In this document: positions 43,986 through 56,926 of the stretch, one piece after another
How the letters are laid out: every line of letters begins with the position of its first letter
Numbering within the stretch: position 1 is the first letter of the stretch
Origin: Sulfitobacter sp. HGT1
GTDB taxonomy: Bacteria; Pseudomonadota; Alphaproteobacteria; Rhodobacterales; Rhodobacteraceae
Direction of reading: 5' to 3'
NCBI RefSeq assembly: GCF_013282155.1
Contig: NZ_BLWI01000012.1
Location: 62,001-126,000 of the forward strand
DNA length: 64,000 bases
The notes under the pieces: model-generated
The model's database searches: none
Told to the model about the DNA's origin: nothing
Seen by the model: only the letters and a program-made list of their open reading frames with translations
Translations under genes and position numbers: made by a program

Positions 43986-44147
43986 ATGTGCAGGCCTTAT
44001 CTTGTTTCGATCAACGCTATCAGGTTCACCCCCAAGCGCAATGGCACCCCGCCGCCCAAGCACGCAGTCGTGAGCAGTAATTTGCCCGTCTAATACGAAA
44101 AAAGGCGCGCCGCAGCACGCCTTTTGATGGTTTCGCAAGCGACCCTA

Positions 44148-45797
44148 TTACATGTTCGGATAGTTCGGGCCGTCCCCGCCCTGCGGCGTTGTCCAGACGA
44201 TGTTCTGCGACGGGTCTTTGATGTCGCAGGTTTTGCAATGCACGCAGTTCTGGAAGTTGATGACAAAACGCGGGTCTTTGCCCTCTTCCTCAACGAATTC
44301 GTACACACCGGCGGGGCAATAGCGCGCCGACGGGCCCGCGTATTCCTTGAGGTTCACATTTACCGGCACGGACGGGTCTTTCAACGTCAGATGCGCAGGC
44401 TGGTTTTCATCGTGGTTTGTAAAGGAAAACGCGACGTTGGTCAGACGGTCAAAGCTCAGCTTTCCATCGGGCTTGGGATAGTCGATCTTTTTGTGCTTGC
44501 TGGCTTTTTCCGTCGCCTCGGCATCGGATTTCCCGTGGCCAAGCGTACCCAGAAGCGAAAAGCCCAAGGTGTTGGTCCACATGTCGAACCCACCCACGGC
44601 AAGCGATGTCATCAGACCGTATTTGCTCCACAACGGTTTGACGTTGCGCACTTTTTTCAGGTCTTTACCGATCTCGCCGCCGCGCACGTCTTGCTCATAG
44701 GCGGTCAGCTCGTCACCGGAACGGCCAGCCTGGATCGCATCAAATGCGGCTTCGGCGGCGGCTTTGCCCGACAGCATGGCGTTGTGATTGCCCTTGATGC
44801 GCGGCACGTTGACCATGCCCACCGAACAGCCCAGCAGCGCCACACCGGGTGCAACCATCTTGGGCATCGACTGATAGCCACCTTCGGTGATGGCACGCGC
44901 ACCATAGGCGACGCGCTTGCCGCCTTTCAGCAGCTCGGCGACCATCGGGTGATGTTTAAAGCGCTGGAATTCCATGTAGGGGAACACATGCGGGTTTTTA
45001 TAGCCCAAATGCACAACAAAACCGACATATACCTGATTGTTTTCAATGTGGTAGATGAACGATCCGCCACCGGCATTGCTGTTCAGAGGCCAGCCCATCG
45101 TGTGGGTCACGGTGCCTTCTTTGTGCTTGGCGGGGTCGATTTCCCAGATCTCTTTCATGCCAAGCCCGTATTTCTGCGGTTCCTTGCCAGCATCCAGATC
45201 ATATTTCGCGATCACCTGCTTTGACAGGCTGCCGCGCACGCCCTCGGACAGGAACACGTATTTGCCGTGCAGTTCCATGCCGGGCTCATAGTTGTCACCC
45301 TTGGTGCCATCCGGGTTGATCCCGAATTCACCGGCAACCACGCCTTTGATCTCGCCATTTTCGCCGTACACCAGTTCCGAACAGGACATGCCGGGGAAAA
45401 TCTCGACACCCAGCTCTTCGGCTTGCTCGGCCATCCAGCGACAGACATTCGCCATCGACACGATATAGTTGCCGTGGTTGTTCATCAGCGGTGGCATGGG
45501 GAAGTTGGGCACGCGCAGCTTGCCCGCCTCGCCCAGCATGTAAAAGTTGTCTTCGATCACCTTGGTCTTTATCGGCGCGCCTTTTTCTTTCCAATCAGGC
45601 ATCAACGCGTCCAGACCGATCGGGTCCAGCACGGCACCCGACAGGATATGCGCGCCCACTTCGGACCCTTTTTCCAGCACGACGACGTTGCAGTCGGCAT
45701 CAAGCTGTTTCAGACGGATCGCGGCAGACAGGCCCGCAGGACCAGCGCCAACAATAACGACGTCATATTCCATTGTTTCGCGTTCAACTTCGGCCAT
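44148..45797 (-). CDS. Electron transfer flavoprotein-ubiquinone oxidoreductase
   Basis: A 549-residue membrane-associated flavo-iron-sulfur enzyme that passes electrons from reduced ETF (from acyl-CoA and other dehydrogenases) to ubiquinone. It has the N-terminal FAD loop VVIVGAGPAGLSAAIRL and a C-terminal 4Fe-4S ferredoxin-like domain with Cys in CPAGVYEF and NCVHCKTCDIKDP. The ATG at 45797 has GGAG about seven bases upstream. It stands alone and would serve the acyl-CoA dehydrogenase encoded at 55-57 kb; etfAB are not in the window. Confidence 0.96.
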   Translation of the reverse strand: MAEVERETMEYDVVIVGAGPAGLSAAIRLKQLDADCNVVVLEKGSEVGAHILSGAVLDPIGLDALMPDWKEKGAPIKTKVIEDNFYMLGEAGKLRVPNFPMPPLMNNHGNYIVSMANVCRWMAEQAEELGVEIFPGMSCSELVYGENGEIKGVVAGEFGINPDGTKGDNYEPGMELHGKYVFLSEGVRGSLSKQVIAKYDLDAGKEPQKYGLGMKEIWEIDPAKHKEGTVTHTMGWPLNSNAGGGSFIYHIENNQVYVGFVVHLGYKNPHVFPYMEFQRFKHHPMVAELLKGGKRVAYGARAITEGGYQSMPKMVAPGVALLGCSVGMVNVPRIKGNHNAMLSGKAAAEAAFDAIQAGRSGDELTAYEQDVRGGEIGKDLKKVRNVKPLWSKYGLMTSLAVGGFDMWTNTLGFSLLGTLGHGKSDAEATEKASKHKKIDYPKPDGKLSFDRLTNVAFSFTNHDENQPAHLTLKDPSVPVNVNLKEYAGPSARYCPAGVYEFVEEEGKDPRFVINFQNCVHCKTCDIKDPSQNIVWTTPQGGDGPNYPNM

Positions 45798-46128
45798 TTG
45801 GGGCTCCTCTTCGGGCAGAAAATGGGTTTGGATTTGGCTAAACCAGCAGGGCTTGCTTTGCAATCGGAACACAACGTTAAAATGCAGGCCCGCGACAGTT
45901 TCGTACCTATTTAACGCCCGTCCCGTCATTATGTTTCGCCATGCGAGATAATCTGGCCCGACGCGGTGCAACAAATTTAATCAAATCCCCGCAGGCGAAG
46001 TTTGGCAGGGCCGCAACACTCCGCTCTTGCAATCATCCGCTACTTTGGGTCAGGTAAGGACCAATTCAAATCGGTTGCACCCTCAGGCTTGGCTTGGGGC
46101 TGTGACCCTCATTGCGTGGACGACCACA
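45798..46128. other. Divergent intergenic region between ETF-QO and greA, nothing specific seen
   Basis: A 331-base gap between two divergent housekeeping genes. It should hold both promoters, but I see no pair of good hexamers at normal spacing, no strong hairpin and no tRNA-like sequence. An in-frame extension of greA runs upstream here but has no ribosome site or conserved sequence. Confidence 0.5.
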
Positions 46129-46599
46129 ATGGAAAAAATCCCGATGACCCGCGCCGGTCATACTGCTTTGGAAACCGAACTAAAGCACCTCAAGACGGTA
46201 GAACGTCCTGCAATCATCAAGGCGATTGCCGAAGCGCGCGAGCATGGTGACCTGTCCGAAAACGCCGAATACCATTCCGCCAAGGAAAAACAGTCCTTTA
46301 TCGAAGGCCGCGTGAAAGAGCTGGAAGGCGCGATTTCGCTGGCCGACGTGATTGACCCGTCCAAAATGTCCGGCTCCATCAAGTTTGGTGCCAAGGTCAC
46401 CTTGGTGGACGAAGACACCGACGAAGAAAAAACCTATCAGATTGTTGGTGAATACGAGGCCAACATTGAAAAAGGGCTTTTGAACATCAAATCCCCCATT
46501 GCACGTGCGTTGATCGGCAAAGAAGAAGGCGATAGCGTTGCAGTGCGAACTCCGGGGGGTGAAAAATCGTATGAGGTTCTCAAGATCATTTACGCTTGA
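46129..46599 (+). CDS. greA: Transcription elongation factor GreA
   Basis: A 156-residue factor that rescues backtracked RNA polymerase by stimulating transcript cleavage. The N-terminal coiled coil is typical ([34 protein letters not shown]), with the tip acidic residues in [16 protein letters not shown], and the C-terminal globular domain contains [19 protein letters not shown]. The ATG at 46129 is supported by conserved MEKIPMTR; the next ATG is at 46144. It is followed after 15 bases by the unknown membrane protein gene. Confidence 0.97.
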
Positions 46600-46614
46600 T
46601 CTGGGGTTTTCAGC

Positions 46615-47664
46615 ATGACCGAAAATGTGCCTGCCAAACCGTCAAGGCCGAACCCGCCGCGCCAGTCGGCGCGCTCTACGCCGTTCGGCGTCTATTCACG
46701 CCCGAATGACAAAAGCATTTCCAATATCGAAATTATCGCCATTGCACTAAGCGTGCTTTGGCTGCTGGGCTCTGCCATCTTTTTTCTGGTGCAACCTGCC
46801 AACCCCAACCCCGACGCCGGGGATAGCGGCCTTCGGTTCTTGATGACGATGCTGGCGATTTTCATGCCCGTCGCGATGATCTGGGTTGCCGCCACGGCAG
46901 CACGGGCCAGCCGCGTGATGCGCGAGGAAAGCCAGCGTTTGCAATCTGCAATCGACGCCATCCGGCAGGCCTATATCGCGCAGCAGCAAGGCAAACCCTT
47001 TGATGGCGATGCCTCGGTCAATCGTAAACTTGACGAAATCGCCGCCGCCGCCCGCAAAACCGAAACCGCGCTGGCGACGTTTCAAACCCGCCGTGATGCG
47101 GCACCCCGCGCCGCAGTCCCCGTGCCTGTCGTTGCGCTGTCTGACGATCAGCCCACATTGGCCCTTGGCACCCAAGCCAGCGATATGGCCCCCGCGCTGT
47201 CGCATGACGATTTCATTCGGGCGCTGAACTTCCCCGAAACGGCGGACGACACCGAAGGCTTTAACGCCCTGCGCAAAGCCCTGAAAGACCGCAACGCATC
47301 CCAATTGGTGCAGGCATCCCAAGACGTGCTGACCCTGCTGAGCCATGATGGCATCTACATGGATGACCTGCGCCCTGACCGTGCCCGCCCCGAAGTCTGG
47401 CGCGAATTTGCACAAGGGGCCCGTGGCCGGACGATTGCGGCCCTTGGCGGTGTGCGGGACCGGTCATCGCTTGCGTTAACCAATGCACGCATGAAGCAGG
47501 ACCCGATTTTTCGGGATGCAGCACATCATTTCCTGCGGCGCTTTGACCGTGTTTTCGCCAGCTTTGAGGCGCAGGCATCGGATGCTGAAATCTCGGCTCT
47601 GGCTGAAACACGCACCGCGCGGGCGTTCATGTTGCTGGGCCGTGTGGCGGGCACCTTCGACTAG
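46615..47664 (+). CDS. Unknown protein with two membrane helices and helical cytosolic domain
   Basis: A 349-residue protein I do not recognise. The N-terminus is Pro/Arg-rich (about 35 residues), followed by two hydrophobic helices (IIAIALSVLWLLGSAIFFLV and FLMTMLAIFMPVAMIWVAATAA). A long helical stretch with EESQRLQSAIDAIRQAYIAQQ follows, then a soluble C-terminal domain (FIRALNFPETADDTEGF, FLRRFDRVFASFEAQA). It may share a transcript with greA. I recall similar hypothetical proteins beside greA in Rhodobacteraceae, but no function is known. Confidence 0.75.
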   Translation: MTENVPAKPSRPNPPRQSARSTPFGVYSRPNDKSISNIEIIAIALSVLWLLGSAIFFLVQPANPNPDAGDSGLRFLMTMLAIFMPVAMIWVAATAARASRVMREESQRLQSAIDAIRQAYIAQQQGKPFDGDASVNRKLDEIAAAARKTETALATFQTRRDAAPRAAVPVPVVALSDDQPTLALGTQASDMAPALSHDDFIRALNFPETADDTEGFNALRKALKDRNASQLVQASQDVLTLLSHDGIYMDDLRPDRARPEVWREFAQGARGRTIAALGGVRDRSSLALTNARMKQDPIFRDAAHHFLRRFDRVFASFEAQASDAEISALAETRTARAFMLLGRVAGTFD

Positions 47665-47684
47665 GGCGCGGGTGCCTTGAGGCC

Positions 47685-49757
47685 CTAAATCCCGAAGGAT
47701 CCGTAGGGGATGAACCGCACCGGATCGCCGGGGCGCACATGGACCGCGCCGTCCGGCAGTTCCACCAGACCCTCCGCCCAGCTTAGCCCGCTGATCCGGC
47801 CCGATCCTTCGGAGGCGAACACCTCGACCTGACCGTCGCGCATGCGGGCGCGCAGATATTCGCGACGTCCCGGTTTTTTGCGTTTCTCAAATGCCGCCGG
47901 CACGTTGAACCCTTGCGGTGTGGTCCATTCCTGCCCGGCCATCACGGCCAAAGCGGGGCGCGCAAAAATCAAGGTGCACACCATTGCCGCGACAGGATTG
48001 CCCGGCAGACCAAAAACCGGCATCCCCTGCCACATCCCCAAAGCCAAAGGCCGTCCCGGCTTGACCGCGATCCGCCAAAGCGACAAGGCACCGGCTTCCT
48101 CCAGCAGCGCCGACACGTGATCTTCGTCCCCCGCCGACGCGCCGCCACTGGTCAAGATCGCATCCACGCGGCCCGTGGCACCGTCCAGCCGCGCACGCAA
48201 AGCCGCGCGGTCATCGCCCACATGGCCCAGATCAACGGCGTGATAGCCGAACTGGGCGATCAGCGCCAAAAGCATCGGCCGGTTCGCGTCGTAAATCTGG
48301 CCATCCGCGGCGGTATCGCCCGGTTGCACGATCTCGTCCCCGGTCGAAATCACGCCAACCCGCAAGGGCCGGTACACGTCCAGCGCGGCATTTCCGGTGG
48401 CGGCCATCAGCGCCAGATCGGCAGCCGTCACGCGACGCCCCGCACCTGTGGTCACCTCGCCTTGCGTTATGTCCTCGCCCGCCTTGCGGGTGTTTGACCC
48501 CGCCTTGATCGGGCCGTTGAAATGCACGGCACCCGCATCAATGCGGACGTCTTCCTGCAACACCACCGTATCAACCCCTTGGGGCAATGCCGCCCCGGTG
48601 AGGATACGGATTGCCTGCCCATCAGGCACAACCCCCGGCGCATCACCCGCAGCAGCGCGGCCAGCGGCCAAAGGCAACCGATGCGGCCCCGCGCCCCGCC
48701 CGCCTGCAAAACCATAGCCGTCAACAGCAGTATTCGGCAGCGGCGGGTTTGCGCGTTTTGCAATCACGTCCCGTGCCACGACACGCCCCAAGGCATCGCC
48801 CAGCCCGACCGTTTCGACCGCAACGACCCGCGACAATCTTGCGCGCAACAGCTTCAGCGCTTCGTCTACCGGCGTCCAATGCACGCCCGGTGGCAGGGCA
48901 AAGCAATCATTGCGCAACGGTGCGGCAGACCGCAGACGGTCCTCGAAACCAAGCCCGAAAATCCAGCCTTCTTCGGGGGCCGAGACGTCAAGCATTTCTG
49001 CCAATGCAGTGCCCGACTGGCCGCTGATCTGGCGCGCGGCTTCCTGCACCTGCCACGCGTCCTTGATCACCCCCTGCGGGGCGGCACCCACCGTAAGCGA
49101 GGGCCAGATTTCAACAAACGCCACCTGCGACGTCAGGGGCTCAAAGGGCCAAACGCTGACCTTTTCGCGAAACCTGCTGCGCAACCGCGACAGAACCGGC
49201 AAGCCCATGAAAACCTGCGATCCGACCGCCCCCGCACCGGCCATTTGCCAACAGGTGAACGCGCCCTTGGCTTGGGCTTCCGACTGGCGCTTGTCCGCGA
49301 AAGGGTTCGAATAATCGGCCTTTGTGCGCGGCAAGCCGGGAATGTCACGCTTGGGCAGGCCGTTGGCCCAGAACGGGCCGCGCCCGTCGCCAAGCGCAAG
49401 GTTCAACTCTCCGGCCAGATCAAAACGGTTGTTCGCATCGCCCGTGTCCTTGATCCGTGCCTCGAACCAGTCCCAAAGTGCCAGCGGGTCGGGCGCGCCG
49501 GTCAAAGCCTCGGCAAAACCGGCGGGATAGCCAAAGGGGAAATCAAAACCGATCATGACGCGGCGATCGGTGCCCAATTCGGTTTCTATCAGATCAGCGA
49601 TCCACGCCTCTGCCGCGATCCGGTTGCGCAGATAAACCGGGTCTTGGGGTTGCCCCCCACGACTGATCCCCGCCCAGATCGCATCCTTACGCGGGCGCGC
49701 GCCGGTATCATTGCCGCCCGACCAGTCGATCATCACAATTGTATCGAAACCCGTCAA
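47685..49757 (-). CDS. MoeA molybdotransferase fused to a large N-terminal domain
   Basis: A 690-residue protein. Residues from about 295 on are a complete MoeA (PLPNTAVDGYGFAGG, LTGAALPQGVDTVVLQEDV, GVISTGDEIVQPG, ILTSGGASAGDEDHV, GLPGNPVAAMV), which inserts molybdate into adenylylated molybdopterin. The first 290 residues are another domain (MIDWSGGNDTG, MIGFDFPFGYPAGF), resembling an RNase H-like DUF429 fold. The TTG start at 49757 overlaps the mobB stop and has GAGG seven bases upstream. It is last in the fdhD-mobA-mobB-moeA operon. The N-domain role is unknown. Confidence 0.87.
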   Translation of the reverse strand: MTGFDTIVMIDWSGGNDTGARPRKDAIWAGISRGGQPQDPVYLRNRIAAEAWIADLIETELGTDRRVMIGFDFPFGYPAGFAEALTGAPDPLALWDWFEARIKDTGDANNRFDLAGELNLALGDGRGPFWANGLPKRDIPGLPRTKADYSNPFADKRQSEAQAKGAFTCWQMAGAGAVGSQVFMGLPVLSRLRSRFREKVSVWPFEPLTSQVAFVEIWPSLTVGAAPQGVIKDAWQVQEAARQISGQSGTALAEMLDVSAPEEGWIFGLGFEDRLRSAAPLRNDCFALPPGVHWTPVDEALKLLRARLSRVVAVETVGLGDALGRVVARDVIAKRANPPLPNTAVDGYGFAGGRGAGPHRLPLAAGRAAAGDAPGVVPDGQAIRILTGAALPQGVDTVVLQEDVRIDAGAVHFNGPIKAGSNTRKAGEDITQGEVTTGAGRRVTAADLALMAATGNAALDVYRPLRVGVISTGDEIVQPGDTAADGQIYDANRPMLLALIAQFGYHAVDLGHVGDDRAALRARLDGATGRVDAILTSGGASAGDEDHVSALLEEAGALSLWRIAVKPGRPLALGMWQGMPVFGLPGNPVAAMVCTLIFARPALAVMAGQEWTTPQGFNVPAAFEKRKKPGRREYLRARMRDGQVEVFASEGSGRISGLSWAEGLVELPDGAVHVRPGDPVRFIPYGSFGI

Positions 49758-50245
49758 AGCCCGACCTCGGCCAGAATGAAATCGGCAATCGCAGCGGTGT
49801 CATCCAGATCGAACACGGGGCGGTCCAGCGTCAGAGGCGTGTCGCTTGCGACGGCCCGAATGGTCGGATCATCCGGCGCGATCAGCGGGTTTCCCGGCTC
49901 GGTCCGATAGGCCTCTACCTTGGGGTGGACGTCGCGCTTGTAGCCTTCGATCAACACCAGATCGACCGGGCTTAGCCGTGTCAGCAATGTCTCGAGCGTG
50001 GGTTCGTCCTCGTCGCGCAATTCATGCATCAAGGCGACCCGATTGCGCGAGGCCAGCAGAACTTCGCGGGCACCGGCGATGCGGTGGCGGTGGCTGTCCT
50101 TGCCCGGATGATCGACCTCGAACGTGTGGTGGGCATGTTTGACCGTGGACACGCTAAAGCCACGGCCCGTGATCTCGGCCACCAGCCGTTCCATCAAGCC
50201 GGTCTTGCCCGCGTTCTTCCACCCAGTGACGCCGTAAATCCTCAT
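49754..50245 (-). CDS. mobB: Molybdopterin-guanine dinucleotide biosynthesis adaptor MobB
   Basis: A 163-residue P-loop GTP-binding protein that assists MobA in forming the guanine dinucleotide cofactor. The Walker A loop is VTGWKNAGKTGLMERL at the N-terminus, followed by STVKHAHHTFEVD and the LVLIEGYKRDVHPKVE signature. The ATG at 50245 overlaps the mobA stop (ATGA); the open frame extends upstream but homology starts here. Its own stop overlaps the moeA fusion start (TTGA). Confidence 0.94.
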   Translation of the reverse strand: MRIYGVTGWKNAGKTGLMERLVAEITGRGFSVSTVKHAHHTFEVDHPGKDSHRHRIAGAREVLLASRNRVALMHELRDEDEPTLETLLTRLSPVDLVLIEGYKRDVHPKVEAYRTEPGNPLIAPDDPTIRAVASDTPLTLDRPVFDLDDTAAIADFILAEVGL

Positions 50246-50844
50246 AGCATGCCCTTTGCAATTTCCAGATCTTCCGGCGTGTTCACATTGAAAAACGCGG
50301 CCTCGTGAGGGAACAGTGCTTCGCGGCCCTGATGCTGCTGGGTCCACATGACCACCTTGCGCAAGCCCCCCTGCAAGGCGGCACGCAGATCATCGCGCAA
50401 GGCAACGGGCCACAGCCCGAATGTCGGGTGGCGCGCAGTGCCGCGGGTCGCATCAGGCGTTGCGGCCAGAACCAGCGGATGGGTCATGCCTTCGCTGGCA
50501 AGCAGCAGACGGGGCACCAGATCGCCGGGAAAAAACGGTGTGTCCGCAGCGGCAGTCACAATCGTATCCGCCCCGCGCGCGGCGGCCCAATCCATCCCGG
50601 CAAGCACCCCTGCCAAGGGCCCAACGAAACCGTCGATACTGTCAGGCAGAACCGGCAAATTCAGGCCGTCAAACCGCGCCGCATCGCCATTGGCATTCAA
50701 GGCCAGCTCAGCGACCTGCGGCGACAGGCGTTCGATGACATGGGACAGCAATGTCTTGCCACCAAGGGTCAGCAACCCCTTGTCGCCGCCCCCCATGCGC
50801 GTCGCCTGACCGCCAGCCAGAATAACCCCAAGTGGTTGTTTCAT
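50242..50844 (-). CDS. mobA: Molybdenum cofactor guanylyltransferase
   Basis: A 200-residue nucleotidyltransferase joining GMP to molybdopterin to make the bis-MGD cofactor used by formate dehydrogenase and DMSO-reductase family enzymes. The GTP-binding start is LGVILAGGQATRMGGGDKGLL and the metal Asp is probably in TAAADTPFFP. The ATG at 50844 overlaps the fdhD stop (ATGA). It is second in the operon. Confidence 0.94.
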   Translation of the reverse strand: MKQPLGVILAGGQATRMGGGDKGLLTLGGKTLLSHVIERLSPQVAELALNANGDAARFDGLNLPVLPDSIDGFVGPLAGVLAGMDWAAARGADTIVTAAADTPFFPGDLVPRLLLASEGMTHPLVLAATPDATRGTARHPTFGLWPVALRDDLRAALQGGLRKVVMWTQQHQGREALFPHEAAFFNVNTPEDLEIAKGML

Positions 50845-51728
50845 TCCGACCCCTTTCGGCCTGCGCGTTTCGGTTCATCCACGATCAAATCGGGGTCGGC
50901 GTCGCGCACAAGACGGTCCTCGCCAGCAAGGCAGACAAAGCGTTTGCCTTTCATCCGGCCAATCAAGGTCAACCCGACCTGATTGGCGATTTCGACACCC
51001 CATGCGGTGAACCCGGAGCGGGACGCCAGCACAGGTATGCCCATCATCGCGGTCTTGATCACCATCTCCGAGGTCAGACGCCCCGTGGTATAAAGAATCT
51101 TGTCATCGGCGCGCACTTTTTCAGAAAGCATCCAGCCTGCGATTTTATCGACGGCGTTGTGACGCCCGACATCTTCCATATAAACCAACGGCTTGTCGCC
51201 TTGGCACAGGATGGTGCCGTGAATTGCACCTGCCTCAAGATACAGGCTGGGTGTGCGGTTGATCTGCGCGCTCAGACGGTAGAGCCACGAGGTATGCACG
51301 GGCGTTGCGGGCAGGCTGACGCCCTCGAGCCCTTCCATCATGTCACCGAACACCGTGCCGACAGCGCAGCCACTGGTGCGGGTTTTCTTGCGCATCTTGT
51401 CTTCGTAATCGGTTTTCCGGGCGGTGCGCACCACAACGACCTCAAGGTCTTCGTCATAGTCTACGCGGGTGATTTCGTCATTGTCGCGCAACATGCCCTG
51501 ATTGCGCAAAAACCCAAGCGCGAGGTATTCGGGATAGTCCCCGATGGTCATGGCCGTCACGATTTCCTGTGAATTCAGAAAAATCGTCAGGGGCCGTTCT
51601 TCAACCACATTGATGGTCAATTCAGCGCCCGTGTGATCGCGCCCCTTTACAGCACGGGTCAGGCGCGCGGCCCCCGGTTGCGGAGCGATCAGATAGGCGT
51701 CGGTGTCAGTGTCTGCAGACAATTGCAT
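50841..51728 (-). CDS. fdhD: Formate dehydrogenase accessory sulfurtransferase FdhD
   Basis: A 295-residue sulfurtransferase that moves sulfur from IscS to the molybdenum cofactor before insertion into formate dehydrogenase. The conserved GRHNAVDKIAGWML and LTSEMVIKTA regions are intact. The usual CxxC is C121-A-V-G124 here, so only the first Cys remains. The ATG at 51728 gives normal length. It heads the operon fdhD-mobA-mobB-moeA and is divergent from azlC with 48 bases between the starts. The formate dehydrogenase genes themselves are outside the window. Confidence 0.92.
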   Translation of the reverse strand: MQLSADTDTDAYLIAPQPGAARLTRAVKGRDHTGAELTINVVEERPLTIFLNSQEIVTAMTIGDYPEYLALGFLRNQGMLRDNDEITRVDYDEDLEVVVVRTARKTDYEDKMRKKTRTSGCAVGTVFGDMMEGLEGVSLPATPVHTSWLYRLSAQINRTPSLYLEAGAIHGTILCQGDKPLVYMEDVGRHNAVDKIAGWMLSEKVRADDKILYTTGRLTSEMVIKTAMMGIPVLASRSGFTAWGVEIANQVGLTLIGRMKGKRFVCLAGEDRLVRDADPDLIVDEPKRAGRKGSE

Positions 51729-51776
51729 CCCCCTCGGACGGCGGCTAAGGATATGAAGGTAATCTAGGGGTAAACC

Positions 51777-52499
51777 ATGGCCATCACCACCACGAAATCG
51801 GCCTTCCGCAAGGGGCTGGCCGATGCGGCACCCTTTGTCCTGGTCATCATCCCTTTCTCGTCCCTGTTCGGCATTCTTGCCACCGAAGCAGGGCTGAGCG
51901 TGTTTGAAACGCTGGCGTTTTCCGTTGTCGTGATCGCAGGTGCCGCTCAATTCACCGCCCTACAGCTGATGCAGGAACACGCACCGACAGCGATTGTGCT
52001 GGCGTCGGCCCTTGCGGTGAACCTGCGCATGGCGATGTATTCGGCGTCCCTGACCCCCTATATCGGTGCCGCCCCGCTTTGGCAGCGCGCGCTGGCGGCC
52101 TATCTGACGGTTGACCAATCCTATGTCTGCTCGATGGCGCAATATGAGAAAGAGCCGGACATGACGATCCCGCAGCGGATGTCGTATTTCTTTGGCTGCG
52201 TGACGCCGATCGTGCCGCTTTGGTATCTGTTCACGCTGGTCGGCGCATTGCTGGGCACACAAATCCCCGACAGCTGGGCGTTGGACTTTGCCCTGCCCAT
52301 CACGTTTCTGGCAATGATCGCACCGATGTTTCGCACGCCTGCACATGTGGTTGCAGCGCTCGTTGCATCGATTGCAGCCCTTGCAACCGCAAGCGTGCCC
52401 TATTCGCTGGGCCTGATTCTGGCGGGGATGGCAGGCATGATCGCGGGGGCCCAGACCGAAGTCTGGCTGGTTCGCCGCGCAGAGAGGACCGCAGGATGA
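51777..52499 (+). CDS. azlC: AzlC family branched-chain amino acid exporter, large subunit
   Basis: A 240-residue inner-membrane protein with about seven hydrophobic helices. The early ADAAPFVLVIIPFSSLFGILATEAGLS and the conserved NLRMAMYSASLTPYI and SYVCSM...FGC region are family marks. With AzlD it exports branched-chain amino acids or analogues (as YgaZH do for valine). The ATG at 51777 fits the helix pattern. The stop overlaps azlD (ATGA). Confidence 0.9.
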   Translation: MAITTTKSAFRKGLADAAPFVLVIIPFSSLFGILATEAGLSVFETLAFSVVVIAGAAQFTALQLMQEHAPTAIVLASALAVNLRMAMYSASLTPYIGAAPLWQRALAAYLTVDQSYVCSMAQYEKEPDMTIPQRMSYFFGCVTPIVPLWYLFTLVGALLGTQIPDSWALDFALPITFLAMIAPMFRTPAHVVAALVASIAALATASVPYSLGLILAGMAGMIAGAQTEVWLVRRAERTAG

Positions 52500-52822
52500 T
52501 CGACAAAACCACATTATGGATCGTGATCATCTGCCTTGGCATCGGCAGCTTTGGCTTGCGCTTTGTTTTTACCGGATTGGTGGGCGACCGCGAGATGCCC
52601 GCATGGCTGCTGCGCCATCTGCGCTATACCGCCGTTGCCATCCTGCCCGCATTGGTGGCCCCGCAGGTCATTGCCCCTGCTGCGACGGGGGGCCAATTTG
52701 ACCCCGCGCGTTTCGCAGCAGCGGCTGTTGCCCTAGCCGTTGGCGTTCTTACCAAGAACGTTTTGCTGGCGATTATTAGCGGGGCCGGGACCTTGTACAG
52801 TCTCTTGTGGCTGCTGGGATAA
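52496..52822 (+). CDS. azlD: AzlD family small subunit of branched-chain amino acid exporter
   Basis: A 108-residue membrane protein with about four helices: TTLWIVIICLGIGSFGLRFVF, RHLRYTAVAILPALVAPQVI, FAAAAVALAVGVLTKNVLLAII and SGAGTLYSLLWLL. It is the standard partner of AzlC; its ATG overlaps the azlC stop. Its last 90 bases overlap the 3' end of the convergent lipoprotein gene, an unusually long overlap for this genome. Confidence 0.9.
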   Translation: MIDKTTLWIVIICLGIGSFGLRFVFTGLVGDREMPAWLLRHLRYTAVAILPALVAPQVIAPAATGGQFDPARFAAAAVALAVGVLTKNVLLAIISGAGTLYSLLWLLG

Positions 52823-53413
52823 CTGGCCAGCGCGCACCGCATCAATCACATCACCATCGTCGTTTTCGTAATATTTGTCGGTGCTGACATTTGGCAGACT
52901 GCCAAATTGCTCGGACAGGCTGACCGGATAGAATGTCTTGCTGATCCCCTCGAAACCGGGAATCTGAGACAGCAATGCCGAGGTTGAATTGGCGCAATAG
53001 GCACCGGGCACCTGACCATTCGCCATCACCAGCTTTAGCACCTGTTCGGCTTGGGCGTCGGAGACTGGAACAGTCTGGCTGATCACGTGGAATGTGCTGC
53101 GGGCATGGGCTGATTTATAGGCTTGTATCCATTTCGGAGACATCCCGTATAAAACATCGCCCCGCTCGACCACGCGGGGGTCGCGGAAGGACCCTGCCGG
53201 ATCAAAGATCACCTGCTGGGATCCGTTGACAACCAACGCCGTATGCCCGCCGTTGCCAGACCGGTTGTTCACCATGGTCATCAGGGTCAGGGATTTGGGC
53301 CCCGGCGCGGAGTAGGCCGCAGATGCGACCTCGGCCAGGGAATTGTCGGTGCCGGTATCGTTGGCACAAGCCGAAAGCGTGGCTACGCAGGCCAATGCCA
53401 TCCAAATGCGCAT
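52733..53413 (-). CDS. Lipoprotein with possible permuted papain-like (NlpC/P60-type) fold
   Basis: A 226-residue exported lipoprotein. The signal peptide MRIWMALACVATLSAC ends in an LSAC lipobox. The mature part has GHTALVV with a candidate His and, about 80 residues later, GAYCANSTSALL with a candidate Cys, an order seen in permuted NlpC/P60 enzymes; catalytic function is inference. The last 30 residues (Gln/Pro/Asn-rich) lie in the 90 bases shared with azlD and are probably a recent readthrough tail. It stands alone. Confidence 0.7.
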   Translation of the reverse strand: MRIWMALACVATLSACANDTGTDNSLAEVASAAYSAPGPKSLTLMTMVNNRSGNGGHTALVVNGSQQVIFDPAGSFRDPRVVERGDVLYGMSPKWIQAYKSAHARSTFHVISQTVPVSDAQAEQVLKLVMANGQVPGAYCANSTSALLSQIPGFEGISKTFYPVSLSEQFGSLPNVSTDKYYENDDGDVIDAVRAGQLSQQPQETVQGPGPANNRQQNVLGKNANG

Positions 53414-53445
53414 GTGAATGTCCTGCAAAATAGGGTCGATACGTC

Positions 53446-53580
53446 TTAGCGGGCGAAGATCGCCATAAAGACAAGAATACCGATGATCACGATGGAGGAC
53501 CATTTGACCCAGTTCATGAAGCTGTCAAAGGTCTTTTCCTGCGACGTGGTATCCATGGAGCCGTGTTCATGCTTGGCCAT
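53446..53580 (-). CDS. aa3-type cytochrome c oxidase subunit IV
   Basis: A 44-residue single-helix membrane protein, MAKHEHGSMDTTSQEKTFDSF followed by MNWVKWSSIVIIGILVFMAIFAR. It matches the small fourth subunit seen in Rhodobacter and Paracoccus aa3 oxidases. Its role in the complex is minor or regulatory. The ATG at 53580 is clear, and the main oxidase genes lie elsewhere. It sits 32 bases upstream of the lipoprotein start on the same strand. Confidence 0.9.
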   Translation of the reverse strand: MAKHEHGSMDTTSQEKTFDSFMNWVKWSSIVIIGILVFMAIFAR

Positions 53581-53671
53581 ATTCGTAATCCTTTGACTTG
53601 GTGTTCGTTCCAATTTGAAAACGTGGTTACTGCATTCGGACAGCCATGTCACGATGTCAACGCGCACGATC

Positions 53672-54157
53672 TTATGAGTTTTTTGTCTGCGTCTTGGCTG
53701 CATCAGCCTCGATATCCGCGATCAGCCGGAATCCGATGCGATTCGCGGGCTTTTCGCTTTCGGTCTTGGGCAAGGCACGCAGGGCGACGTTCAGCTGGCT
53801 GACATGTTGCACCAGTTGCATTCGTCCCCCGCCCCCGTCCTGACCGTAAAAGGTAACGATGTCGGGGTCGAAATATCCCATGCCTTCGATGCGCAAAACA
53901 CCGGCGTCACCCCCCGCAAACCCCATGGCGACCTCGTGATCCCCATCCAGCTGTTCCTCAAAATTCTTGAGGTACAGCACAACCCGTTCATAGGCCCATT
54001 GCGCCGGAGATTTCCGCGCTGCGGGCGTATCGGTCATGCCGCTTGGCACCGCTTGTTCGCTTGCATTGCGCTGCGCGGGGTCGGTGTGAACCTCGTGCAG
54101 GCGGGGCAAAACATCGGCTTCCGCAGCCTCTGCTGCGGTTCTGATCATATCATCCAT
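53672..54157 (-). CDS. DUF6173 family protein
   Basis: A 161-residue soluble protein I recognise as a Rhodobacteraceae conserved family (DUF6173). The core SPAQWAYERVVLYLKNFEEQL, EVAMGFAGGDAGVLRIEGMG and YFDPDIVTFYG, then QLVQHVSQLNVALRALPK, is characteristic. No function is known to me. The ATG at 54157 overlaps the MBL hydrolase stop by eight bases (ATGGATGA), so the two are co-translated. It is third in the acyl-CoA dehydrogenase operon. Confidence 0.75.
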   Translation of the reverse strand: MDDMIRTAAEAAEADVLPRLHEVHTDPAQRNASEQAVPSGMTDTPAARKSPAQWAYERVVLYLKNFEEQLDGDHEVAMGFAGGDAGVLRIEGMGYFDPDIVTFYGQDGGGGRMQLVQHVSQLNVALRALPKTESEKPANRIGFRLIADIEADAAKTQTKNS

Positions 54158-55211
54158 GCGCTTGGTCCGTTGCCTGATATACCCATGCGCCATCTTCGGC
54201 CCGCAAGTCACGTGTGGCAAGCCCGGTTTGGTACAGATGACTTAGATGTGCGACAGACTCGACCAACGCCAGCCCGTATTCCTCTTCGCCGATTTTGCGT
54301 TTGAACAAGGTCGGAAAGCATTCGGATGCGGATTTCGGCGTATCGATATATTTGACCAACCGCTTCAGCGCGCCGTGGTGGTTGTCGATCAACTGGCGCA
54401 TCCGCGTGGGCAACCCCGTGAAGGGCAGTTTATGCCCGCCCAGCACCAGATGATCCTCGCGGCCCATCGGGGCCAGCCGTTCGCAAGCCTCAAGCCATTC
54501 GCCAATCGGGTCGGCCATGGGTTCGGTCGCATAGACACCGACATTGGGGCTGATCGACGGCAAAATCTGATCGCCCGCAATGACCAAATTGTCATCCCTG
54601 CTCCAGAATGTTGCGTGTTCGGGGGCGTGACCATTGCCCATGTGCACGTCAAACACCCGACCGCCAATGGTGATCTGATCATCCTGCTTGATACGGGTGA
54701 ACCCCAAAGGCAGCGGATCGACGATATCGGCAAAGTTGAAGGGCCGCTCCGTCGCGCGTTTTGCGTACAGGTCAGGGTCCATGCCCGACATCTTGTAAAA
54801 CGCCAGTGTTTCCGCAGCCGGGGTCTTTTGGGCATCCAGCGTCAACATGCGCGCCGTCAGCCAGGCCGTGCGCGTTGTAACCAGTTCGGCCCCGTGTTCG
54901 GTCTGGAACCAGCCCGCCAGCCCGATGTGATCGGGGTGGTGATGTGTCACGATCACCCGCGAAACCGGCTTGCCGCCAAGCGGGCCTGCCATCAGATCGG
55001 ACCAAGTTGCCTTGGCCTTCTTGGACGAAAATCCGGTGTCGATGATCGTCCAGCTGTCGCCTTCGTCAAAGGCATAGACGTTCACATGGTCCAGCTTCAT
55101 CGGCAACGGCAAGCGCATCCACAGAACACCGGGGGCGACCTCGACCGCCTCGTTACCGGCAGGCGGCATATCCCAAGGATAACGCAGGCCCACGTGCTTT
55201 TTAACGGTCAT
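54150..55211 (-). CDS. MBL-fold metallo-hydrolase
   Basis: A 353-residue metallo-beta-lactamase-fold protein. The zinc motif VTHHHPDHIGLAGW is present, with the later His in MGNGHAPEHATFW and the Asp in LVIAGDQILP; a winged C-terminal extension (RQLIDNHHGALKRLVKY) resembles LACTB2-type hydrolases. The natural substrate is unknown, but being coupled to an acyl-CoA dehydrogenase suggests a thioester hydrolase. The ATG at 55211 overlaps the dehydrogenase stop by one base (TGATG). Confidence 0.88.
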   Translation of the reverse strand: MTVKKHVGLRYPWDMPPAGNEAVEVAPGVLWMRLPLPMKLDHVNVYAFDEGDSWTIIDTGFSSKKAKATWSDLMAGPLGGKPVSRVIVTHHHPDHIGLAGWFQTEHGAELVTTRTAWLTARMLTLDAQKTPAAETLAFYKMSGMDPDLYAKRATERPFNFADIVDPLPLGFTRIKQDDQITIGGRVFDVHMGNGHAPEHATFWSRDDNLVIAGDQILPSISPNVGVYATEPMADPIGEWLEACERLAPMGREDHLVLGGHKLPFTGLPTRMRQLIDNHHGALKRLVKYIDTPKSASECFPTLFKRKIGEEEYGLALVESVAHLSHLYQTGLATRDLRAEDGAWVYQATDQAHG

Positions 55212-56926
55212 CAAGCGGTCAGTTCGTCAATGGACAGCGCAAAGAGGTCATCTGCGCCCGACTGCGCATGCACCAACAGCCCCGCATGTTCGGGCAACAA
55301 CCGCAGAATATAGAACCGCGCCAGTTTTTCACGCGCACCACCCTTGTCGGCCAGCGCCGCCTTGAGGTGCAAATGCCCGCCCAAGACCCGTGCAAAAGCC
55401 CGCAGATACGGCACGGCACCGGCAAAACGCGTGTCCATGTTGTCTTGGGCAACCAGCCATTCGGTGGCCTCGCGCAGGGTTTCTGTCGCCTGCCAGACCG
55501 CGTCAGCCATGTTCGGGAACGCCTCGCGCGCGGCTTCGGCATGGGCTTCGATTTCGTCCATGAGACGGTTTGCCGCCTCGCCGCCATCCATCATCTTGCG
55601 CGCCACAAGGTCCATCGCCTGAATGCCGTTCGTGCCCTCGTAAATCGCCGTCACGCGGACATCGCGGCAGAATTGCGCAGCGCCGGTTTCTTCGATCACG
55701 CCCATGCCGCCATGCACCTGCACCCCCATTTGCGACACCTCGATCCCGACATCGGTGCCGAACGCCTTGGTGATCGGGGTCAGGAAGGCCGCGCGCGATT
55801 TCCACTCGGCCTCTCCGGTGGCATTGGTCATGTCGATGGCCACGGCACAGCTGGCCGCGATGGCCCGCGCCGCAAAGGTTTCGGCCTTCATCGTCATCAG
55901 CATCCGGCGCACATCGGCGTGGTCAACGATGGTGCCAGACCCGTCGGGTTTGATATTCTTGCCCTGCTTGCGGTCCAGCGCATAGGACAGCGCATGTTGA
56001 TAGGCCGCCTCGGCAACACCGATACCTTGCTCGCCAACCCCAAGTCGCGCGTTGTTCATCATGGTGAACATCGCAGCCATACCGCCTTGTTCGGGGCCAA
56101 CCAGCCAACCGATAGCCTTGTCATATTGCATCACACATGTTGGCGATCCGTGCAGGCCCATCTTATGCTCGAGGCTGACAACCTGCAGCGTGTTTCTGGC
56201 CCCCAGACTGCCATCTTCGTTTGGCAGGAACTTGGGCACCAGAAACAGGCTGATCCCTTTTGTGCCCGCAGGCGCACCGGGCAGACGCGCAAGCACCAGA
56301 TGGCAGACGTTGTCGGCGAAATCATTGTCGCCCCAGCTGATATAGATTTTCTGACCCGAGATGCTGAACGTCCCGTCGCCGTTGTCTTCGGCCTTTGAGG
56401 AAAGCGCGCCCACGTCCGACCCGGCCTGCGGTTCGGTCAGGTTCATCGTGCCGGTCCATTCGCCGCTGATCAGCTTGGGCAGATACAGTTCCTTGATCGC
56501 GTCGCTGGCATGGTGTTCCAGCGCCTCGATCTGGCCCTGGCTCATCAACGGGGCCAGTTGCAGCGATAGACACGCGCCGCTCATCATTTCGTTCACGGCG
56601 CTGGCCATGGTCAGGGGCAGGCCCATCCCGCCATATTCCGGGTCCGCACTGATCCCGATCCAACCGCCCTCTGCGATGGCTTTGAACCCGTCAGCATAAC
56701 CGGGCGACGTGCGCACAACACCGTTTTCCAGTCTGGCCGGCTGAAGGTCACCGGGGCGCTGCAAGGGGGCCATGATATCGTTGCACAATTTGCCCGCTTC
56801 TTCCAGAATCGCCCGGCTCACATCATCTGTGGCATCTGCGAACTTGTCCGTGGCACGCACGTCATCAAACCCGACAATATGGTTGAACAGAAAATTATAA
56901 TCCTCAACGGGGGCGCGGTATGGCAT
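55211..56926 (-). CDS. Acyl-CoA dehydrogenase, DmdC-like
   Basis: A 571-residue FAD enzyme. It starts MPYRAPVEDYNFLFNHIVGFD, has the flavin site GTMNLTEPQAGSDVG and the catalytic Glu in AIYEGTNGIQAMD, and a C-terminal extension of the DmdC type. DmdC oxidises methylmercaptopropionyl-CoA in DMSP demethylation; other ACADs of this clade handle ordinary acyl-CoA, so the substrate is open. The ATG at 56926 has a perfect AAGGAGG six bases upstream. It heads an operon with the MBL hydrolase and DUF6173. Confidence 0.87.
   Translation of the reverse strand: MPYRAPVEDYNFLFNHIVGFDDVRATDKFADATDDVSRAILEEAGKLCNDIMAPLQRPGDLQPARLENGVVRTSPGYADGFKAIAEGGWIGISADPEYGGMGLPLTMASAVNEMMSGACLSLQLAPLMSQGQIEALEHHASDAIKELYLPKLISGEWTGTMNLTEPQAGSDVGALSSKAEDNGDGTFSISGQKIYISWGDNDFADNVCHLVLARLPGAPAGTKGISLFLVPKFLPNEDGSLGARNTLQVVSLEHKMGLHGSPTCVMQYDKAIGWLVGPEQGGMAAMFTMMNNARLGVGEQGIGVAEAAYQHALSYALDRKQGKNIKPDGSGTIVDHADVRRMLMTMKAETFAARAIAASCAVAIDMTNATGEAEWKSRAAFLTPITKAFGTDVGIEVSQMGVQVHGGMGVIEETGAAQFCRDVRVTAIYEGTNGIQAMDLVARKMMDGGEAANRLMDEIEAHAEAAREAFPNMADAVWQATETLREATEWLVAQDNMDTRFAGAVPYLRAFARVLGGHLHLKAALADKGGAREKLARFYILRLLPEHAGLLVHAQSGADDLFALSIDELTA

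Follow-up and report, generated by a model that had tools for sequence, protein, structure and literature searches.

The fusion gene and its operon

The window analysed here, a 64,000-nucleotide stretch of the Sulfitobacter sp. HGT1 genome, contains on its minus strand an operon with the gene order fdhD-mobA-mobB-X.moeA, the last gene of which encodes a MoeA protein preceded by an additional N-terminal domain, designated here as X. The fdhD ORF (50841–51950), whose true start is probably internal, matches the Pfam FdhD-NarQ model (E = 6e-74), and mobA (50242–50844) scores 203 bits with TIGR02665 (cut-off of 152). The ORF of mobB (49754–50245; Pfam MobB, E = 2.5e-46) extends to 50347, its likely start being the ATG at 50245, as judged from where the domain lies, from the overlap with mobA, and from comparison with the mobB of Ruegeria TM1040 (492 bp). 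No RNA element was detected in the operon with Rfam at E ≤ 0.1 (positions 44000–56000).

The fusion gene itself (47685–49757, minus strand) is a 690-aa ORF that runs from a TTG start at 49757 to the stop at 47685 with no internal stops. Its start is supported by the overlap with mobB, as mobB ends and X begins within the same four bases (TTGA in the window). A survey of the codons at the beginning of the X match, covering 54 of 80 named loci (the 26 omitted were mostly those in which the match begins late or elsewhere), gave GTG in 45, TTG in 4, ATG in 4, and CTT in 1, and the 4-base overlap was also present in 50 of these 54 loci.

The first-pass annotation had described the product as a full MoeA behind an extra domain of about 290 residues. 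The complete MoeA was borne out: Pfam recognised MoeA_N (residues 296–455, 123 bits), MoCF_biosynth (468–604, 105 bits), and MoeA_C (619–684, 51 bits) in this order and above their cut-offs (30.8, 26.6, and 22.1), and E. coli MoeA (1fc5) aligned with E = 3.9e-71, so MoeA domains I–IV were assigned to residues 296–690 (47688–48872). The N-terminal part is indeed a distinct domain, and both motifs noted earlier, IDWSGG and IGFDFPFGYP, lie within residues 1–290; however, its C-terminal border falls near residue 277, not 290. Domain X spans residues 1–277 (48927–49757). Residues 278–295 (48873–48926) form a junction that is mostly PLRNDCFALPPG (about 279–291), which is MoeA's own N-terminal leader, because the same segment heads stand-alone and MobB-fused MoeA proteins of other genomes. 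The pLDDT of the junction was below 50 at residues 281–289 in the model of X and 66 at residues 281–290 in the full-length model.

According to the alignment, the MoeA half carries the pocket residues reported for the tungsten-biased MoeA1 of Methylorubrum, with R569 in KPGRP (48051–48053, minus strand) equivalent to Arg291 of MoeA1 (Lys in E. coli MoeA) and A590 in GLPGNPVA (47988–47990, minus strand) equivalent to Ala312 (Ser in E. coli MoeA). The KPGRP and NPVA pocket was found in 85 of 87 X-fused MoeA (the other two being cut by contig ends), in 25/25 unfused MobB-linked MoeA, and in 7/7 MobB-fused ones; the Arg and Ala residues are thereby present in all 117 readable MobB-linked MoeA. Stand-alone second MoeA copies of the window's genus (n = 12) show RPGKP with PVS (11) or KPGKP with PLS (1), and two stand-alone MoeA of other families (L262 and L264) also have KPGRP with PVA. 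The formate dehydrogenase of the genome is of the tungsten (MeFDH1) type, its FdhA scoring 1356 bits against the tungsten enzyme (7vw6/8j83) versus 613 against 6tg9, and a plasmid of Alloyangia has the operon next to a tungsten-type formate dehydrogenase. This set resembles the MoeA1-MobB tungsten pathway of Methylorubrum extorquens (PMC13197769) in its MobB-linked MoeA with Arg and Ala pocket residues, its fdhD and mobA, and its W-type formate dehydrogenase, with the differences that domain X is not mentioned in the part of that paper available to us and that the tungsten preference of the window MoeA is putative. The same source, as far as available, describes MoeA-MobB fusions in gammaproteobacteria.

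Fused and separate forms of X and their genomic contexts

Among 145 distinct loci, the joined X.MoeA frame is open in 82, and X and moeA are separate genes in 20; as many loci were hand-picked (L200–L222 as X loci of MobB-negative genomes, L223–L232 and L237 as X-negative genomes with MobB, and another 37 genomes likewise), these counts of architectures are not frequencies. On a complete plasmid, X.MoeA is annotated as a single gene of 2163 bp, whereas X of Ruegeria pomeroyi (L066) forms a gene of its own. The fusion label changes 14 times on the MoeA tree, at least seven of the changes being forced by starred branches, although both this tree and a second one are quick trees with many open forks. 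Because the joined frame is open at so many loci and fused and split forms alternate on the MoeA tree, X.MoeA is a true fusion that has been repeatedly gained or lost.

The first-pass annotation had considered that homologues with a clean break near residue 290 would reveal a frameshift or a missed stop joining two genes. Homologues with separate X and moeA genes do exist, at the 20 loci above, and speak for that reading, yet the open frames come from many independent assemblies, including that of the complete plasmid, and exclude it; the probability that a sequencing error or missed stop alone joins X and moeA is negligible.

Regarding its neighbourhood, X has mobA, mobB, or moeA no more than 3.5 kb away at 123 of 132 distinct loci of the family studied, to which L113 and L240–L242, labelled outside/moco in the context table, also belong. 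Six of the remaining nine loci are cobalamin operons, and the class of other contexts includes loci with flanks of only 1.5 kb. The operon context agrees with the role around cofactor handling first proposed for the N-terminal domain.

At the 23 X loci fetched from MobB-negative genomes, mobA adjoins X in 17, and none contains mobB, moeA, or fdhD; for the class with only mobA and X, the absence of mobB and moeA follows from its definition, and that of fdhD alone is a separate observation. Genomes with X beside mobA but no fdhD, mobB, or moeA at the locus have, where tested, a molybdenum-type formate dehydrogenase. Since genomes with the molybdenum-type enzyme also keep X next to mobA, describing X as a tungsten- or formate-dehydrogenase-specific factor is too narrow. 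The link to formate dehydrogenase suggested by the first-pass annotation therefore fits the MoeA half and not X, which is kept beside mobA without fdhD, mobB, or that moeA.

In the cobalamin operons, cbiX adjoins X (L162, L171, and L235), together with cbiC in L171, and the cobalamin genes seen next to X correspond to ring-synthesis and not to nucleotide-transfer steps. Nearly all X-bearing genomes of the family studied have one copy, located at Mo/W-pterin genes (in the extreme case fused to the tungsten-type moeA) or with cbiX, and in some genomes the single X is placed in a cobalamin operon; a search of the class found a few genomes with two X places (G353 and G489). Within the window's genus, X has been replaced in place at least once. 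Tier-2 relatives of X adjoin rarA and crcB instead of lying in cofactor operons, as in the order rpoA-rplQ-degP-like-rarA-X-crcB-rluC-like (L141), and two adjoin HNH endonucleases.

X was undetected in 66 of 211 MobB-positive genomes of the family in a single-sequence search for X (seven weak MobB matches were scored as absent; 218 genomes had MobB at E ≤ 0.001 and 212 over the cut-off), and mobA scored above its cut-off in 276 of the 295 genomes, X being present in 177; because of the kinship among the genomes, tests of co-occurrence exaggerate their independence. It follows that no pathway step strictly requires X, which is dispensable.

Sequence relatives and predicted fold of domain X

Searches with residues 1–290 gave no matches in Pfam or PADLOC up to E = 1, none below E = 1 among PDB sequences (best of 1.1), and nothing in a PDB profile search; with no PADLOC match, the idea of X as a defence gene is not supported. 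Nevertheless, the novelty of the domain had been overstated, as NCBIfam has a model for it, NF011066/PRK14495, in which it figures as the "unknown domain" fused to MobB, with residues 2–278 aligned to model positions 165–450 at E = 2.4e-55. The whole PRK14495 model scores 188 bits versus a cut-off of 596, MobB not being part of the same protein, and five of six X relatives from other contexts also match NF011066. The two arrangements differ in that X stands at the end of MobB in PRK14495 and at the front of MoeA here, with mobB as a separate overlapping gene. The best NCBIfam score of the MoeA half was obtained with the MobB/MoeA fusion PRK14491/NF011060, and such MobB.MoeA fusions take the corresponding position in the operons of sister genomes (L223–L229); in the window, X takes the place of MobB, and the match reaches 420 bits against a cut-off of 532, starting at model position 183. 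Unlike gephyrin and Cnx1 G-E fusions, the protein has no second MogA-like domain, its sole MoCF_biosynth stretch being inside MoeA. In the public records seen, the fusion is named "gephyrin-like molybdotransferase Glp" and free X "hypothetical protein". A literature search of titles and abstract openings, of incomplete coverage, found no description of the X.MoeA fusion or of domain X.

Membership in DUF429, as first suggested, was not supported. The Pfam model of DUF429 (PF04250) matched nothing in the protein at E ≤ 1 and nothing across the genome, and profile-profile comparisons of X with DUF429 were weak (P of 0.0041, 0.025, and 0.0016; probabilities of 8, 2, and 16%; 26–45 aligned columns), with P = 0.21 for the tier-2 relatives and controls of 0.53 for reversed DUF429 and from 0.01 (FdhD) to 0.72 for unrelated families. 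We therefore did not file X under DUF429. Short motifs, aligned by eye, are similar in X and DUF429 (strand 1 with D, strand 4 with DxPxG(L/Y)P, and strand 5 with E..P.L), whereas strand 4 of X is followed by a large insert; DUF429 is placed in clade D of the RNase H-like superfamily in the part of PMC3985635 available to us.

The AlphaFold2 model of X (pLDDT of 92.3) shows the element order b1-b2-b3-aA-b4-(insert)-aB-b5-aC, with DSSP strands at residues 6–11, 27–33, 41–43, 67–71, and 212–217 and helices at 46–62, 178–195, and 232–245. The topology of the RNase H-like superfamily is b1-b2-b3-aA-b4-aB-b5-aC, and the predicted structure of X reproduces it, so X is confidently predicted to adopt an RNase H/RuvC-like fold, as the first-pass annotation had supposed. 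In the structure search with VIA-align, the top matches included Cas9/Cas12a, Tex, Spt6, phage and Deinococcus RuvC, a terminase nuclease, and RuvX/YqgF, with Z of 5.1–7.0 among the 50 matches listed, values below 8 that, according to the tool, may reflect just a common arrangement. We take these 50 to be mostly RuvC/RNase H-like domains. The likeness to RuvC/YqgF/Tex-type domains is thus one of predicted topology and top structural neighbours, with undetectable sequence similarity. Foldseek found no match to the model in PDB or BFVD (viral) at E ≤ 0.001; its first rows were exopolyphosphatases and then some kinases, with very poor TM-scores. The VIA-align output holds no DUF429 structure, which is not evidence against kinship.

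Four acidic positions were conserved along 197 X-family sequences. Carboxylates occupy the positions of D11, at the end of strand 1 (49725–49727, minus strand), in 195 sequences (the other two are gapped), and those of D72, at the end of strand 4 (49542–49544, minus strand), and E216, in strand 5 (49110–49112, minus strand), in 197/197. The column of D233, in the first turn of the C-terminal helix (49059–49061, minus strand), has Asp in 180/197, corresponding to 132/132 in the family and 48/65 outside it, where 16 His and 1 Asn were also found. RNase H-like enzymes have catalytic acids on b1, b4, and the last helix, and in the predicted structure of X these elements bear D11, D72, and D233, with E216 as a further conserved acid on b5. 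In addition, the segment inserted after strand 4, ahead of the last helices, contains an invariant R157 and several invariant aromatic residues.

Possible functions of domain X

Our best explanation, a tentative one, is that X acts as an accessory phosphoesterase, probably metal-dependent, in the late assembly of Mo/W cofactors and, elsewhere, in corrinoid synthesis, a reading supported by the predicted RNase H-like fold, the conserved carboxylates, the cofactor-operon context, and the tungsten-type MoeA pocket and formate dehydrogenase. Such an enzyme would use two metal ions on a phosphoester or phosphoanhydride (nucleotidylated) intermediate or by-product, near the metal-insertion (MoeA) and guanylylation (MobA) steps, with the editing or recycling of MPT-AMP or of the guanine-dinucleotide cofactor as candidate jobs. 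By being joined to MoeA, X would remain at the place where the intermediate forms, and in other genomes a relative of X may play the corresponding part in corrinoid synthesis, next to the cobalt chelatase CbiX. Both the catalysis and the substrate are conjecture. Against a phosphoesterase stand the dispensability of X, the low structural-search scores, the His found in the D233 column outside the family, and the ring-synthesis nature of its cobalamin neighbours; the rarA and crcB neighbours of tier-2 relatives fit nucleic-acid work equally.

It is also possible, though doubtful, that X has no catalytic activity and works as a docking or scaffold domain, keeping MobA, MobB, FdhD, or the apo-enzyme close to MoeA, and CbiX in B12 operons, with its acids binding a structural metal or a partner. 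The MoeA1 of M. extorquens is described as an interaction hub for MobA, MobB, and FdhD in the available part of PMC13197769, X is fused to or adjoins such partners, and the invariant residues of the insert could be accounted for in this way; however, catalytic-type acid positions are conserved even in distant relatives in other operons, and a MoeA-specific scaffold is not expected beside cbiX or alone with mobA. The RuvC-like structural matches and the rarA, crcB, and HNH endonuclease neighbours, together with the proposal, in the part of PMC3985635 available, that DUF429 proteins are RNase H-like nucleases, would suit a DNA- or RNA-cleaving nuclease of RuvC/DUF429 kind, housekeeping or regulatory, placed in cofactor operons for expression only, which we consider unlikely given the MoeA fusion in 82 distinct loci, the presence in cofactor operons of two kinds, and the negative PADLOC search. 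As for the ATP-binding sensor that the first-pass annotation had also proposed, the exopolyphosphatases and kinases in the first Foldseek rows would fit an actin-like/ASKHA-type sensor or kinase, but RuvC-type domains come first in VIA-align and the model of X has one RNase H core, whereas actin-like proteins have a duplicated one, making this role, which was not borne out, very improbable.

A broader reading, and a rather doubtful one, is that X constitutes a new accessory enzyme family common to two unrelated metal-cofactor pathways. As a part of it, and with as little confidence, the X gene would have moved and been replaced between Mo/W-pterin and B12 sites.

Such cofactor fusions are pointers to partners. 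In marine alphaproteobacteria that have tungsten-type formate dehydrogenases, X is a testable candidate helper for the late stages of Mo/W cofactor assembly, one that public annotation has hidden. Tungsten-type formate dehydrogenases are of applied interest, and the title of PMC13396061 describes their maturation in a foreign host as the major bottleneck. That X also occurs in B12 operons suggests a function shared by the two pathways. To our knowledge, no accessory proteins are shared by the Mo/W-pterin and B12 pathways; if the broader reading were true, a step that has gone unrecognised, whether chemical or one of quality control, would be common to pterin and corrinoid cofactors during metal insertion or nucleotide activation.

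The X.MoeA fusion and its distribution

The gene at 47685-49757 (reverse strand) is an uninterrupted frame of 690 codons with a TTG start, whose residues 296-684 matched the Pfam models MoeA_N, MoCF_biosynth, and MoeA_C; in a PDB sequence search, the protein matched E. coli MoeA (E 3.9e-71). The N-terminal domain, X, ends at about residue 277. The junction falls between this end and the leader that belongs to MoeA itself, ...PPLRNDCFALPPG; free MoeA and MobB-fused MoeA carry it at their front too. X.moeA is the final gene in the order fdhD-mobA-mobB-X.moeA, and the mobB stop and X start share a four-base overlap in the window and in 50 of the 54 named relatives examined. Public annotation calls the fusion, for example CEW88_RS21140 in NZ_CP022191.1, a gephyrin-like molybdotransferase Glp; the window protein scored 248 bits against the NCBIfam Glp model, whose cut-off is 475.

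Two genes of the surroundings recur in many relatives: one adjoining the operon, for a protein of unknown function beside greA (46615-47664, forward strand; no Pfam match over the cut-off), and one on the fdhD side for a small protein (52733-53503, reverse strand; no Pfam match).

X (residues 1 to ~277) showed no Pfam match up to E=1, no PDB sequence match below E=1, and nothing in PADLOC. Residues 2-278 matched NF011066 (PRK14495; E 2.4e-55), a MobB/unknown domain fusion protein, through the second half of that model; this half is X, so the domain was already known to NCBIfam. X.MoeA is a new variant of the known MobB/X and MobB/MoeA fusions.

Among 295 Rhodobacteraceae genomes, X was found in 177, with a single match in 176 of them. 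Scanning named genomes yielded 91 confirmed relatives; the best 80 were kept, mostly from Sulfitobacter, Roseobacter, Ruegeria, and their kin. Sorting by common reading frame was carried out on 145 distinct loci (160 before duplicate removal), many chosen by hand, so that the counts are not frequencies. X and MoeA were fused at 82 of these loci and separate at 20; X adjoined mobA without mobB and moeA at 18, adjoined mobB without moeA at 3, and stood without all three genes at 9. X was absent from the remaining types, with MobB fused to MoeA (9 loci) or mobB and moeA separate (4). The named loci alone (n=80) included 61 fused and 13 separate. On a tree of 113 MoeA proteins from these loci, the fusion label required 14 changes, at least seven of them forced by starred branches, and the presence of X required 7. 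The open joined frames and these repeated changes show a true fusion that was gained or lost several times. The first-pass annotation, which had read a MoeA fused to an extra N-terminal domain and proposed counting fused against separate genes, is thus confirmed on the fusion itself.

Exchange of X and its other genomic contexts

X behaves as a replaceable module. In one Sulfitobacter locus (L284, genome G943), identity to the window was 42.5% in X, 74.6% in MoeA, and 84% in MobB; its nearest X, at 67.6%, was that of a mobA-only locus (L218), and both fell in a starred set of seven on the X tree. Judging from these identities, the X part comes from another lineage, the MoeA and MobB parts being native. 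A second Sulfitobacter locus (L288, genome G937), with 52% identity in X and 71% in MoeA, is a less certain case of replacement: no close X was found for it (best 53%), and on the tree it groups with cobalamin-type X (support 91, not starred).

At six loci of the family where X is remote from mobA, mobB, and moeA, it lies in a cobalamin cluster (L205, L214, L215, L235, L236, L239). In L235, Pfam placed CbiX directly before X, with a precorrin-type methylase and CbiG following; the other five share its genes by sequence clusters, with CbiX in five of the six overall. In a class-wide draw, X matched in 77 of 385 genomes, including the family's own four, and none of mobA, mobB, or moeA was nearby at the 20 strong loci fetched outside the family. 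Nine distinct loci outside the family were also of cobalamin type (L117-L119, L121, L125, L128, L130, L133, L137), with the order CbiX-X-CbiC-methylases in L171 as an example; at several of the cobalamin loci, X adjoins cbiX. A phylum-wide draw gave 25 matches in 299 genomes, only two of which lay outside this class. With the broader profile, too, the window's genome shows one X.

In addition, a weaker, separate X clade was found beside rarA or crcB at 18 distinct loci of other Alphaproteobacteria (L140-L149, L151-L154, L255-L258), one of them (L141) downstream of rpoA-rplQ; two members scanned showed no Pfam match. Very distant X relatives at two further loci (L155, L156) adjoin an HNH_2 endonuclease gene.

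The tungsten operon and the mobA-X loci

According to PMC13197769, the M. extorquens tungsten formate dehydrogenase MeFDH1 requires MoeA1, MobB, and FdhD, the molybdenum enzymes require MoeA2, and what sets MoeA1 apart is an oxyanion pocket with Arg291 and Ala312. These residues correspond to R569 and A590 in the window's MoeA. With overlapping loci kept in the counts, KPGRP and NPVA were present in 85 of 87 X-fused MoeA (the other two cut off by contig ends), in all 7 MobB-fused MoeA, and in 25 of 25 MoeA on their own frame at loci with MobB; the 26th own-frame MoeA, the second copy of the window's genome, reads RPGKP and PVS. Stand-alone copies in Sulfitobacter read RPGKP and PVS in 11 of 12 cases and KPGKP and PLS in one, and two stand-alone frames of other families (L262, L264) read KPGRP and PVA. 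The second MoeA of the window's genome (L301, G000:C8:255500-262500) is canonical; trpC and moaC precede it and lexA follows.

The only formate dehydrogenase of this genome over the Fdh-alpha cut-off (L294, G000:C5:324538-326580) gave 1356 bits against 7vw6/8j83, a tungsten enzyme, and 613 bits against 6tg9, which we take to be the R. capsulatus molybdenum enzyme; its alpha subunit is of the tungsten (MeFDH1) type. On an Alloyangia pacifica plasmid (NZ_CP022191.1, 419227-428406), tusA and formate dehydrogenase genes come directly after fdhD-mobA-mobB-X.moeA, and the FdhA encoded there is tungsten-type (1365 versus 611 bits). From the pocket residues and these tungsten-type enzymes, the whole operon is most likely the tungsten maturation branch.

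X is not itself a tungsten part. FdhA scores were compared in 37 chosen genomes and fell into two bands, with nine genes typed directly, those of the window's genome and G148 by PDB search, and the rest inferred from the score gap. The best FdhA scored 917-949 bits, the band of the molybdenum type, in 14 of 14 mobA-X-only genomes, and 724-750 bits in 15 of 16 X.MoeA genomes, the remaining one (G239) having both kinds; six of seven MobB.MoeA genomes gave 730-770 bits, and one (G203) had none over the cut-off. In genomes lacking a clear MobB, 23 X loci were fetched; none of mobB, moeA, or fdhD was found at them, and X stood beside mobA at 17. At least one of the operon's usual outer neighbours was retained at 13 of these, which indicates that mobA-X occupies the same slot there. 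Furthermore, among loci longer than 7 kb, no mobA-X locus (n=14) contained fdhD, whereas fdhD, mobA, and mobB were all present where X and MoeA are fused (52 of 53) or split (12 of 12).

Across the 295 genomes, 145 had X and MobB, 32 only X, 66 only MobB, and 52 neither, a loose co-occurrence (odds ratio 3.6, Fisher p 1.8e-6) that ignores kinship and scores seven weak MobB matches as absent. MobA was over the cut-off in 276 genomes, so its presence alone explains nothing about X; the looser E<=0.001 gave 293, a threshold at which the control genomes all match too.

Predicted fold and possible role of X

The AlphaFold2 model of X, built on a 48-sequence alignment, had a mean pLDDT of 92.3 and showed strands b1 (6-11), b2 (27-33), and b3 (41-43), helix aA (46-62), and strand b4 (67-71), followed by a helical insert, aB (178-195), b5 (212-217), and aC (232-245), which is the RNase H order. 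The full-length model was less confident (pLDDT 85.9, pTM 0.66), with a mean of 66 in the linker (281-290) and the lowest block, 57, at 541-550 within MoeA. Foldseek gave no match at E<=0.001 in PDB or among viral proteins. In VIA-align, the top ranks went to RuvC-type domains, which share the RNase H-like fold: Cas9, Tex, Spt6, Cas12a, phage RuvC, terminase nuclease, RuvX, and YqgF, at Z 5.1-7.0, in a range below 8 that the tool itself warns may be background. The fold assignment therefore rests on topology, the uniform character of that list, and conserved acids. Across the X family (197 distinct sequences), D72, E216, E263, and R157 were invariant, D11 was present in 195 (the other two gapped), and D233 in 180, with 16 His and one Asn. 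In the model, strands 1 and 4 end with D11 and D72, and D233 lies in the last helix; RNase H-like enzymes have their catalytic acids at such positions. The RNase H-like fold of the first-pass annotation is thus supported at the level of prediction.

Its DUF429 label was not supported: the Pfam model matched neither the window protein nor any other in the genome. Comparison by hhalign with 14 fetched DUF429 proteins gave P 0.0041 and 0.025, and P 0.0016 (probability 16%) with the 197 X sequences, the controls of the latter run giving 0.53 for reversed DUF429 and 0.01-0.72 for seven unrelated families. The aligned block was the GFDFPFGYP / AVDMPIGLP strand, and the rarA/crcB-linked relatives alone gave P 0.21. 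Kinship is possible; DUF429 is grouped with RNase H-like proteins in PMC3985635.

The RuvC-type fold and the kept acids argue for metal-dependent phosphoester cleavage by X. The neighbours MoeA, MobA, and CbiX point to a small molecule or a cofactor as its substrate, not to a chromosome; given the rarA-linked clade, a nucleic-acid nuclease stays in play. According to PMC13197769, MogA adenylates molybdopterin, MoeA uses this intermediate, and MobA adds GMP. X, as a predicted metal-dependent phosphoesterase near these steps, might edit or recycle nucleotidylated cofactor intermediates, a tentative conjecture that we hold well short of even; that X serves as a scaffold is almost as probable. Of greatest interest is that Mo/W and cobalamin operons make shared use of one domain family.
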